Source: Spirochaetota bacterium
GTDB lineage: Bacteria > Spirochaetota > Spirochaetia > Treponematales > UBA12059
Direction of reading: 5' to 3'
Assembly (NCBI GenBank): GCA_022703505.1
Contig: JAKLDN010000003.1
Span: forward strand, 1-64,000
DNA: 64,000 bases
Shown here: positions 7,845 to 34,557 of the stretch, one piece after another
Layout of the letters: each line of letters begins with the position of its first letter
Numbering within the stretch: position 1 is the stretch's first letter
Translations under genes and position numbers: made by a program
Notes under the pieces: model-generated
The model's database searches: none
The model's input: the letters and a program-made list of their open reading frames with translations, nothing else
What the model was told of the DNA's origin: nothing

Positions 7845-8399
7845 TTGGCGGACAACAAAAACTTGCGGATCAACGAGCAGATCCGGGTTCGGGAAGTGCG
7901 GCTTATCGACGACAAGGGCGAACAGAGGGGCATCGTTGCCACCCTGGAGGCCCTGAAGATAGCCCGGGAGGCGGGTGTGGACCTGGTCGAGGTCGCCCCC
8001 CAGTCGAGTCCGCCGGTCTGCAAGCTGCTCGATTACGGCAAGTTCAAATTCGAGCAGGAAAAAAAGATCAAGGAAAGCCGCAAGAACCAGAAGATCGTCA
8101 AGATAAAGGAAGTCCGGATGCAGCCCAAGATCGACGACCACGATCTTGAGTTCAAGTCCAAGCACGTCCGGGAGTTCCTAGAGGAAGGAAACAAGGTCAA
8201 GGTTACGATACGGTTCCGGGGCCGCGAACTGGCGCACACCGAGATTGGCGAGGAAGTGCTCAAGAGCGTCCTGACCCATATCGAAGGATCCTACGTCATG
8301 GAGAAGCTTCCCGCCATGGAAGGCCGGTTCATGTCCATGATCCTGACGCCGAAGGCCGTCAAGAAACCCGTGGAAGTCAAGCCGCCCGACGGCGAGTGA
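7845..8399 (+). CDS. infC: Translation initiation factor IF-3
   Basis: IF-3 binds the 30S subunit, keeps it apart from 50S and proofreads the start codon-initiator tRNA pairing. The 184-residue product is the normal length and contains the N-domain signature NLRINEQIR, the linker rich in Lys and the C-domain segment RFRGRELAH. An ATG at 7824 would add seven residues, but AAGGAGG (7834-7840) sits four bases before a TTG at 7845, making TTG the likely start. A non-ATG start is known for infC elsewhere, where IF-3 represses its own rare start codon. First gene of infC-rpmI-rplT. Confidence 0.93.
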
Positions 8400-30104: not shown

Positions 30105-31259
30105 ATGTCCGCGGGTTTCGAGGTCGAACGCACCTACACGGGTCGGGGAGGGGATACGTCCCTGCTCGCGGCCTCGGCCCTGCTCTTCGGCACGGGCCTG
30201 GCGGTGCTCTACTCCGCCTCGTACGGCTACGCCCTGTCCCTGCAGATGTCCGCCGCCCACTTCCTGTTGCGCCAGCTGGGGTACGCTCCCCTGGCCCTGA
30301 TGGTGTTCCTGGCCTGCGCCTTCCTGCCCGCCGAACGGCTCAAGTCCCTGGTGAAACCCCTGACCCTACTGGCCCTGGCCGCCCTCGTGCTGCCCTTCAT
30401 CCCGGGCATCGGGGTAAGCCGGAACGGGGCCACCCGTTGGATCGGGATCGGTTCCCGGACCTTCCAGCCCTCCCAGATCTTCCGGATCGCCCTGGTCCTC
30501 TACCTGGCCCATATCTTCTCCAAGAAGAGCGAACGGATCGGGGATGTGGTGAACTCCGCCCTGCCGCCCCTGGTGATCACCTCCCTGGGCGCCCTGCTCA
30601 TCTTCCTGCAGAACGACTTCTCCTCCGCGGTGATCCTGGTGCTCGTGGCCGCGGCCCTGTTCTGGGCGGCGGAAGTCCCGGTCCGCTTCTTCGCGGCCCT
30701 GGGGACGATCCTCCTCCCCTTGACGGCCCTCTCCGTACTGACCAGCGACTTCCGGCTCCGGAGGATCATCGGTTTCCTCTACCCCGGGTACGAACCCACC
30801 GCCCTGGGGTACCAGGTGAACGGATCCCTCCGGGCCATCCGGGCGGGGGGCTTCTGGGGCAAGGGGCTGGGCCTGGGAACCCTGAAGCTGACCAGCATAC
30901 CCGAGGTCCAGTCGGACTTCGTGTTCTCCGCCTTCGCGGAGGAAGCGGGGTTTCTGGGAGTCCTGGCCTTCCTGGGGCTCTGGGGCTTCTTCCTGTGGCG
31001 GGGTTACCGGACGGCCTTCCGGAACGAGGACCGCTTCCGGTCCTACCTGGCCTTCGGACTGTCCACAAGCCTGGGAATCCAGGTCCTGGTGAACATAGCC
31101 GTCGCCGCCGGCGCCCTTCCGGCCACCGGGATCGCCCTTCCGTTCTATTCCGCGGGCGGCTCGTCCTTCCTGGAGGCCGCCGCGGCCTGCGGACTTCTCT
31201 ACAACCTTTCCCGGGGAGCCCCGGGAACCCGGGCGGACACGGAGGTGCCCCATGAGTAA
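30105..31259 (+). CDS. ftsW: Septal peptidoglycan glycosyltransferase FtsW
   Basis: 384 residues, SEDS family with about ten membrane segments. GVSRNGATRWIGIGSRTFQPSQ and the QNDFSSAVI, SDFVFSAFAEE and FYSAGGSSFLEA segments are SEDS hallmarks; location in the division cluster favours FtsW over RodA. The ATG at 30105 follows AGGAGGCGGGG. Its last eight bases overlap ftsQ. Confidence 0.93.
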   Translation: MSAGFEVERTYTGRGGDTSLLAASALLFGTGLAVLYSASYGYALSLQMSAAHFLLRQLGYAPLALMVFLACAFLPAERLKSLVKPLTLLALAALVLPFIPGIGVSRNGATRWIGIGSRTFQPSQIFRIALVLYLAHIFSKKSERIGDVVNSALPPLVITSLGALLIFLQNDFSSAVILVLVAAALFWAAEVPVRFFAALGTILLPLTALSVLTSDFRLRRIIGFLYPGYEPTALGYQVNGSLRAIRAGGFWGKGLGLGTLKLTSIPEVQSDFVFSAFAEEAGFLGVLAFLGLWGFFLWRGYRTAFRNEDRFRSYLAFGLSTSLGIQVLVNIAVAAGALPATGIALPFYSAGGSSFLEAAAACGLLYNLSRGAPGTRADTEVPHE

Positions 31260-32085
31260 CGCGGCCGCGTACGACGTCCGACGGGCCGGGACCGCGGCGT
31301 CCCGGAAGGCCCCCCGGGGCTCGGATGCCGGCGAGACGGGCCGGAGGGTCCTCCTGGGCCTCATCGTCGGGCTGGTGCCCCTGGCCGCGGTCTCCCTCCT
31401 CCTGGTGTTCCCCGCCATGAAGATCTCCCGGCTGGAGATCTCCGGGGACACGACCCTGGGACGGGAGGAGGTCCTGCAATGGGCGGCCCTCCACGCGGTC
31501 GAGTACCTGGCCACCGTGGACTGCCCGCGCATCGCGGCCAACATCCAGGCCCATCCCCAGGTGGCGGAGGCCAAGGTCTCCCGCCTCTTCCCGAACGGGC
31601 TGCGGGTGACGGTTACGGACCGGAAGGCCGTGGCGGCGGTCCTGGCGACCGTGGACGGCCGGGCCGTCCCGGTGGGTGTGGACCGGGACGGGGTCGCCTT
31701 TCGGGCCCTGCCGGCGGGCAGCGAGGTTCCGATCCTCTCGGGGATCCGCTTCGAGGGGTTCCGCTACGGAGTGCGCCTTCCGGACACCCTCCTTCCCGTC
31801 CTGCGGTCCCTGGAGGCCCTGCGGGAGGCCGGGCCGGAGCTGCTCTCGGCCTTTTCGGAGCTGCGCCTGGTCCGGAGGCCCTACGGAGAGTTGGAACTCC
31901 TCCTGTATCCCCTGCAGTACCGCGTTCCGGTCCGGACACCCACGGTCTTGAACGCGGAATTGCTGCGCTCTATTATCCTCGTTCTCGACGTCGTGGAGAG
32001 GCAGGGACTTTCTCCGACCATTTCGGAGCTCGATTTTCGGACGGGCACGGTGGTCTACCGCGTCAAGGAGGGAATTTCTGGCTGA
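31252..32085 (+). CDS. ftsQ: FtsQ/DivIB division protein
   Basis: 277 residues. N-terminal cytoplasmic tail, a membrane segment (about 33-52) and an extracytoplasmic POTRA domain starting KISRLEISGDTTLGREEVLQ, followed by the beta domain. FtsQ links FtsL to the ring and to FtsW. Divergent, as usual, but the POTRA segment and the position between ftsW and ftsA are diagnostic. Overlaps ftsW by 8 bases and ftsA by 8. Confidence 0.85.
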   Translation: MSNAAAYDVRRAGTAASRKAPRGSDAGETGRRVLLGLIVGLVPLAAVSLLLVFPAMKISRLEISGDTTLGREEVLQWAALHAVEYLATVDCPRIAANIQAHPQVAEAKVSRLFPNGLRVTVTDRKAVAAVLATVDGRAVPVGVDRDGVAFRALPAGSEVPILSGIRFEGFRYGVRLPDTLLPVLRSLEALREAGPELLSAFSELRLVRRPYGELELLLYPLQYRVPVRTPTVLNAELLRSIILVLDVVERQGLSPTISELDFRTGTVVYRVKEGISG

Positions 32086-33316
32086 GAACCTGATCGTCGG
32101 ACTCGATATCGGCACGTCGAAGACCTGCGCCGTTATCGGGGAATATGCCGAAAGCGGCCTCCTGGAGATCACCGGAGTCGGAACCGCCCCGTCCACGGGC
32201 CTCCGCCGGGGGGTGGTCGTGAACATCGAGGCCACCCTCCGGTCCGTGGCCCAGGCCGTGGAGGCCGCGGAGCTCATGTCGGGACGGGAAGTCCGGGAAT
32301 GCTGGGTGGGGGTGGCCGGGGCCAACGTGGAGGGGATCAACTCCCGGGGCGTCGTGGCCGTCACCGGCAAGGGCCGGGAGATCACCCAGGCGGACGTGGA
32401 CCGGGTCCTGGAAGCGGCCCGGGCCGTGGTCATCCCCATGGACCGGGAGATCCTGCACGTGGTTCCCCAGACCTACATCGTGGACGACCAGAAGGGGATC
32501 CGCAATCCCCTGGACATGATCGGAGTCCGCCTGGAGGCGGAGGTCCACATCATCACCGGATCCGTCACGACCGCCCAGAACCTGGTGCGCTGCGTGAACC
32601 GCGCGGGCTTCAAGGCCGAAGCCTTGATTCTCCAGAGCCTGGCCGCCGCCAAGGCGGTGCTCTCCCAGGACGAGCGGGAGCTCGGCTGCCTCCTACTGGA
32701 CCTGGGGGGGGGGACCACGGACGCCCTGGTCTACAGCGAGGGCGCTCCGTACTACACGAACGTCGTGCCCGCGGGGGGCATCCAGGTCACCAACGACCTG
32801 TCCATCATGCTGAACATCCCCCTGGACGCGGCGGAGAAAATCAAGCTCCAGTCCGGCTGCTGCTACCTGCCCCTGGTGGATCCCGAGGAGACGGTCATCG
32901 TGCCCGGTGTCGGCGGCCGGCCTCCCCAGGAGGTATCCCGGCAGCGGATCGCCTCCATCATCCAGCCCCGGATGGAGGAGATCTTCGGGATCGCCCGGGA
33001 CCGGGTGGAGCAGATGGGGTATTCCCGCCACGTGAAGGGCGGGGTGGTGCTGACCGGGGGCGGAGCCCTGATGCCCGGTGCGGCGGAGCTGGCCACGTCC
33101 GTGTTCGACCTGCCCGCCCGGGTCGGCTCCCCCTACACCGTCGGGGGCCTGGTTGAGGAATACCGGAGTCCCCTGTATTCCACCGCCGTCGGCCTGGTGT
33201 TGGCGGGAGCCGAGCGCACGGCGCCCCGGACTCCGGAAGCCCGGCCTGCGGCCGACCGGAAGGGACCGGGGCTGGCGGGCCGCATCCTGGACTGGGTCCG
33301 CAAGGAGTTTTTCTAG
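32078..33316 (+). CDS. ftsA: Division protein FtsA with a probable CTG start
   Basis: 412 residues. Actin-like ATPase that anchors FtsZ to the membrane. Phosphate-1 motif GLDIGTSKT near residue 8-16, phosphate-2 DLGGGTTD, adenosine motif TGGGALMPGA and the C-terminal amphipathic tail (ILDWVRKEFF). The phosphate-1 motif lies before the first ATG/GTG/TTG (32213), so the real start must be upstream; CTG at 32078 is six bases after AAGGAGG (32065-32071). No other candidate start codon is in frame nearby. Overlaps ftsQ by 8 bases. Confidence 0.88.
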   Translation: MAENLIVGLDIGTSKTCAVIGEYAESGLLEITGVGTAPSTGLRRGVVVNIEATLRSVAQAVEAAELMSGREVRECWVGVAGANVEGINSRGVVAVTGKGREITQADVDRVLEAARAVVIPMDREILHVVPQTYIVDDQKGIRNPLDMIGVRLEAEVHIITGSVTTAQNLVRCVNRAGFKAEALILQSLAAAKAVLSQDERELGCLLLDLGGGTTDALVYSEGAPYYTNVVPAGGIQVTNDLSIMLNIPLDAAEKIKLQSGCCYLPLVDPEETVIVPGVGGRPPQEVSRQRIASIIQPRMEEIFGIARDRVEQMGYSRHVKGGVVLTGGGALMPGAAELATSVFDLPARVGSPYTVGGLVEEYRSPLYSTAVGLVLAGAERTAPRTPEARPAADRKGPGLAGRILDWVRKEFF

Positions 33317-33390: not shown

Positions 33391-34557
33391 ATGACGGTAG
33401 AACTGGTGGACGACAAGTCGGCGAATCCGACGGTGATAAAGGTCATAGGAGCGGGGGGCGGAGGCTCCAACGCGGTCAACCGCATGATCGCGGCGGGCGT
33501 CCAGAACGTCCAGTTCATCGCCGCCAACACGGACCTGCAGGCCCTGAGCAAGTCCCTGGCGGAGGTGAAGCTGGGCCTGGGGGCCAAGGTCACCCACGGC
33601 CTGGGCGCCGGGGGCAAGCCCGAGATCGGGGAAAAGGCGGCCCTGGAGGACCGGGAGGCCATCGCCCAGGCCGTGAAGGGCGCGGACATGGTCTTCGTGA
33701 CCGCCGGCATGGGCGGCGGGACGGGCACCGGCTCCGCCCCGGTCATCGCCCAGATCGCCCGGGACTCCGGGGCCCTCACCGTGGGGGTCGTCACCCGGCC
33801 CTTCGATTTCGAGGGCAGGGTCAAGGCCCGGATCGCGGAGGAGGGGATCGAGAAGCTCCGCCAGGCCGTGGACACCCTCATCGTCATACCCAACCAGCAC
33901 CTCCTGAAGGTCGTGGAGCGCCGCACCCCCATCCTGGACGCCTTCCGCTTCGCGGACGACGTCCTGCGCCAGGGGGTCCAGGGGATCTCGGACCTCATCA
34001 CCATCGCGGGGGAGATCAACATCGACTTCGCGGACGTGCGCACGGTCATGGAGGGCAAGGGCGACGCGATCATGGGAATCGGCTCCGCCTCCGGGGACAA
34101 CCGGGCCGTGGAGGCCGCGGAGAAGGCCATCTCGAACCCCCTGCTGGAGGACGCCCGGATCGACGGGGCCCGCAGCATCCTGATCAACGTCTCCGGAGGG
34201 GAGGACCTCTCCCTGACGGAATTCCAGGAGATCGTGAACCTGGTCTCCGAGAACGCGGATCCCGACGCCCTCATCATCCCGGGGGTCGTGCACGACGATT
34301 GCCTGGGGGACGAGGTCCGGGTCACCGTGATCGCCACGGGGTTCCAGAGATCCCTGAAGGCCGCGGACTCCACAGTCCGCCAGGAGACCCGGCGGGGCGC
34401 GGAGGACTACCTGACCCCGGACGAATGGAAGCGCATCACGGAGGTGCCCTCCCAGAAGAAGCAGTACCTCATGGGGCGCAACGATCCGGAGGACGAGCTG
34501 GACATCCCCACGGTCCTTCGGGACAAGCGCTACCAGGCGGAGAGGAACGAGGCGTAG
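33391..34557 (+). CDS. ftsZ: Division GTPase FtsZ
   Basis: 388 residues. Tubulin-like GTPase: [13 protein letters not shown] (near 22), tubulin signature GGGTGTG (108-114), NxxFAD-like T7 region and the C-terminal region ending [13 protein letters not shown] conserved tail peptide [13 protein letters not shown] matches the FtsZ C-terminal binding motif. It is 74 bases after ftsA, with GGGAGGGG before ATG 33391, and is followed within five bases by a Xer recombinase gene. Confidence 0.97.

Follow-up and report, generated by a model that had tools for sequence, protein, structure and literature searches.

The window, the whole 64,000-nucleotide stretch of DNA that was analysed, is part of a 3.66-Mb Spirochaetota genome and carries a division cluster in which ftsA is placed between ftsQ and ftsZ, all three on the plus strand. 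The ftsQ gene (divIB-like; 31252–32085) has an ATG start and encodes 277 aa with an FtsQ-type Pfam POTRA_1 domain (E 1.3e-10), and ftsZ (33391–34557) also starts with ATG and matches TIGR00065 (E 1e-130). The open frame of FtsA spans 31952–33316, and no ATG, GTG or TTG occurs in it between the upstream stop and the GTG at 32213–32215. The actin-fold phosphate loop of the protein, GLDIGTSKT, is encoded at 32099–32125, that is, 5′ of every such codon, and use of the GTG would cost 45 residues including this loop. Upstream of the loop lies a CTG (32078–32080), preceded by the Shine-Dalgarno sequence AAGGAGG (32065–32071) with the six-nucleotide spacer gaattt. The earlier note had placed the start of ftsA at this CTG, citing the position of the loop and an AAGGAGG exactly six bases before the codon, and both observations are exact.

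Counted from the CTG, ftsA (32078–33316) encodes 412 aa with the Pfam domains FtsA and SHS2_FTSA (the family is TIGR01174 / PF14450 + PF02491). This protein scores 482 bits against TIGR01174 (cut-off 175.85; E 1e-144), with residues 5–375 aligned to positions 1–370 of the 371 in the profile, and since the match reaches profile position 1 the N-terminus has no missing part. A codon-usage model trained on the source genome puts the first coding codon of ftsA exactly at 32078. Together with the alignment of the CTG in 84 of 90 relatives, described below, this makes initiation at CTG 32078 in the source spirochete strongly supported, and the locus has the sequence properties expected of a genuine CTG start, namely no usable canonical in-frame start, a well-spaced Shine-Dalgarno sequence and a conserved NTG start column. 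We also looked for an RNA hairpin occluding the ftsA start, but the region folds more weakly than its shuffles (z +1.75), so the start is not occluded.

A comparison of the start codon in related species had been proposed, and running it revealed a phylogenetic depth that the earlier note had missed, as it had the overlap with ftsQ. FtsA loci were sampled from 59 relatives, the phylum and a genome collection, and were aligned at the phosphate loop. In two FtsA clades, whose 90 non-redundant rows are spread over four families (f1, f2, f4 and f5) within the same order, the aligned start is CTG in 84 (42/47 and 42/43) and TTG or ATG in the remainder, and AGGAGG stands six bases before the CTG in nearly all CTG relatives. 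The families with the CTG start include Breznakiella and a Gracilinema record. With one extra row that has CTG (L157) and two that probably have ATG (L120 and L124), the total comes to 85 of 93. The eight relatives with TTG or ATG (L064, L084, L119, L116, L125, L163 and, probably, L120 and L124) indicate that the CTG is not indispensable for ftsA, as these codons work there. In f3, the fifth family of the order, which includes a complete genome of 1,139,633 bp, and in other classes of the phylum, ftsA starts with ATG, TTG or GTG; a few loci outside the four families have a CTG directly 5′ of an ATG, and there the ATG was scored as the start.

On an FtsA tree (fasttree), in which some rows are partial sequences, we count seven changes of start codon, at least five of them forced by starred branches, and the CTG start may have arisen once or twice within this tree. 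A pattern combining the Shine-Dalgarno sequence, the CTG and the ftsQ stop, searched in 149 genomes of the order, matched 34 of them, and its reversed control matched none. Several of these matches are in genomes outside the set of FtsA loci that we read, and one (G198, family f3) sits on a contig different from that of the ftsA gene of the same genome. In another genome (G047:C158:7546-8563) ftsA seems to be split by an in-frame TGA and a frame change, reflecting either an assembly error or a broken copy. Judged from these comparisons, the CTG start of ftsA is real and has been conserved in four spirochete families over long evolutionary time. The earlier note had allowed that a sequencing error near the start might undo its claim; that a sequencing or assembly error deleted an ATG of ftsA is refuted because dozens of other, independent genomes have this CTG too, among them the complete chromosome of Breznakiella homolactica, NZ_CP067089 (L063), and we find no point in favour of it.

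Across the 84 CTG rows conservation is among the strongest at positions −13 to −7, where A-12, G-10 and G-7 are invariant and A-13, G-11 and G-8 almost so; the spacing is usually six bases. Wobble sites of codons near the start, in contrast, are mixed (for example C37 T36 at +9). CTG makes up only 36% of the leucine codons within the FtsA genes of these relatives, and a purely coding leucine would therefore vary at the start column; the GC content of the CTG loci ranges from 36 to 72%. The same alignment bears on the possibility that FtsA starts elsewhere, whether in the upstream frame via a frameshift from ftsQ, at the ATC at 32093 or at a codon further downstream. Canonical codons are indeed present downstream of the CTG in some relatives, mostly GTG or TTG 15–18 bases after it, but their distance from the Shine-Dalgarno sequence, at least about 21 nt, is too large, and 42 of the 84 CTG loci have no canonical start at all between −60 and a point just past the loop. 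Furthermore, ATC 32093 is not conserved among relatives, and in an FtsQ-FtsA fusion a periplasmic tail would be attached to a protein of the cytoplasm. We consider a start anywhere other than at the CTG very improbable.

The ftsQ and ftsA genes overlap by 8 bases, the CTG included, so that the tail of FtsQ (K-E-G-I-S-G-stop) is encoded by the Shine-Dalgarno and start region of ftsA, and the ftsQ stop TGA (32083–32085) lies five bases inside ftsA. Of the 84 CTG relatives, 72 have the ftsQ stop at +5 relative to the ftsA start and a further 7 have it at +8 (79/84 together), and the FtsQ tails of the overlapping CTG loci are of the type K-E-[AG]-x-[SPAT]-[GDE]-stop. Translational coupling is common in operons, and the stop of ftsQ and the start of ftsA are close enough together for it.

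This overlap raises the question of whose sequence is being conserved, as FtsQ could account for some of the constancy of the C. The CTG would then still be the start, but its C would be kept because the FtsQ codon NCT specifies a small residue (S, P, T or A) before the last residue and the stop; the C is the middle base of this codon, and A, G or T there would give other FtsQ residues. The constancy of the stop position and of the tail type agrees with such a constraint. The T of the CTG, on the other hand, is a four-fold degenerate site of the same FtsQ codon and is nevertheless kept, which argues that FtsA needs it as part of a start codon. Two relatives, L119 and L064, have TTG with the overlap intact, and FtsQ thus tolerates other residues at this position. 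The CTG is also retained in four genomes, representing about three lineages, where ftsQ ends before it: L061 (stop at −4), L111 (−14) and L079 and L081 (−15). In L079 and L081 the usual KEASSG tail seems to have been lost through an indel close to the 3′ end of ftsQ, which leaves the stop 15 bases before the CTG. As the released lineages are only three and one of the releases, that of L079/L081, is recent, the constraint from FtsQ keeps some weight, although we regard it as an unlikely reason for the persistence of the codon. We favor the reading in which the CTG is maintained for ftsA itself; the relatives that keep it appear to be held there, because a single C-to-T step would give the better start TTG and only a few of them have taken it.

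If selection on start codons were relaxed throughout the clade, for instance by an altered initiator tRNA or IF3, the CTG of ftsA would be nothing special. We scanned 1.64 Mb (45%) of the source genome, read in stretches, with 1,399 genes called. Coding seems to extend at least 45 bases 5′ of the first canonical start in 25 of the 1,399; ftsA scores highest among these, and no other of the 25 has a strong Shine-Dalgarno sequence at its coding start. No genome-wide excess of CTG starts was found in the sets of 409 and 1,399 genes, in which CTG after a strong Shine-Dalgarno sequence is no commoner than other codons, and a search for an altered initiator tRNA in about 45% of the genome returned one tRNA-Met, with the GGG/CCC anticodon stem of a normal initiator. 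Within the sampled 1.64 Mb ftsA is near-unique as a CTG-started gene. What speaks for relaxed selection is tilS of the same genome (L200:12893; genome contig C8:196893), directly 3′ of an L25/Ctc-like gene, which also appears to start with CTG, preceded by AAGGAG, in 3/3 species of the genus (L214-L216); its start in the family's other relatives is mostly ATG, and the next canonical codon after its CTG is a TTG just 5′ of the PP-loop. The tilS gene escapes our test for upstream coding because its open frame has canonical codons further upstream. On balance a clade-wide relaxation seems improbable to us. For a 195-aa coding frame on the minus strand of genome contig C7 (C7:107739, in coordinates of the stretch read), coding also seems to begin 111 bases 5′ of the first canonical start; the codon there is a leucine codon and has no Shine-Dalgarno sequence.

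CUG accounts for 0.024% of bacterial start codons, and in E. coli it initiates with 0.86% of the efficiency of AUG (PMC11497404). We suggest, with a probability of roughly 0.78 for the reading as a whole, that the CTG at 32078 is the true and maintained start of ftsA, supported by its Shine-Dalgarno sequence, coupled to ftsQ and giving a low level of FtsA below that of ftsZ. The codon would be decoded by the initiator tRNA as (formyl)methionine, and as CUG initiation is intrinsically poor the rate for ftsA would be low. A strong, well-spaced Shine-Dalgarno sequence inside the last codons of ftsQ would make initiation on the CTG possible, and ribosomes terminating ftsQ five bases inside ftsA would most likely restart there. 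FtsA would then be supplied at a low level, coupled to ftsQ, beneath a well translated ftsZ, and dosage may be the reason for the selection of the CTG. The CTG may plausibly hold FtsA down relative to FtsZ, in view of the published CUG rates, the ATG start of ftsZ in 73/73 of the CTG loci and the persistence of the CTG even with TTG one step away. Keeping FtsA and FtsZ in proportion would fit the balance of division proteins known from E. coli, where FtsZ:FtsA imbalance leads to filamentation (PMC9628754). It is possible, though we hold it only tentatively, that the CTG was selected as a gate, in which free 30S subunits would fail to initiate and only ribosomes finishing ftsQ would start ftsA, with a low FtsA:FtsQ ratio fixed in this way in the four families.

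A start codon with roughly one hundredth of the strength of ATG in E. coli is normally not kept, and its retention by a division gene in four families stands out; ftsA of these spirochetes seems to be a natural case in which weak initiation has been selected. The relatives with TTG or ATG can serve as natural revertants for comparison with the CTG species. We point out that gene callers limited to ATG, GTG and TTG will place the FtsA start too far downstream in many of these genomes, and that ignoring the CTG in the source genome leads to an FtsA miscalled by 45 residues that has lost its first nucleotide-binding loop. In the open-access literature searched, we found no prior report of a CTG start of ftsA in spirochetes. 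The ftsA CTG belongs with the rare start codons found in coupled operons, and the open-access papers searched apparently leave undescribed that a division gene has conserved such a start in four families of spirochetes.

The gene order ftsQ-ftsA-ftsZ is the same in E. coli, and there too the start of ftsA overlaps the end of ftsQ (ATGA, 4 bases), which makes coupling to ftsQ plausible in both; unlike the spirochete gene, E. coli ftsA has an ATG start without a sequence like AAGGAGG before it. The start codon of infC is near-cognate with a mismatch in the third base, and is read by IF3 for autoregulation. In spirochete ftsA it is the first base that mismatches, and the gene encodes a division protein. 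Rare start codons are also fixed in Listeria, for infC (ATT) and rnhC (ATC) (PMC13068326), and infC (AUU/AUC) and Listeria rnhC (ATC) resemble spirochete ftsA as conserved genes with a rare start that has become fixed. Of about 68,900 reconstructed ancestral starts only 4 switched to CUG (PMC5622118), and such switches are sporadic, whereas in the spirochetes one gene, ftsA, keeps its CTG across families. The infC gene of the window itself starts with TTG at 7846, four bases after AAGGAGG, and not with the classical AUU or AUC.
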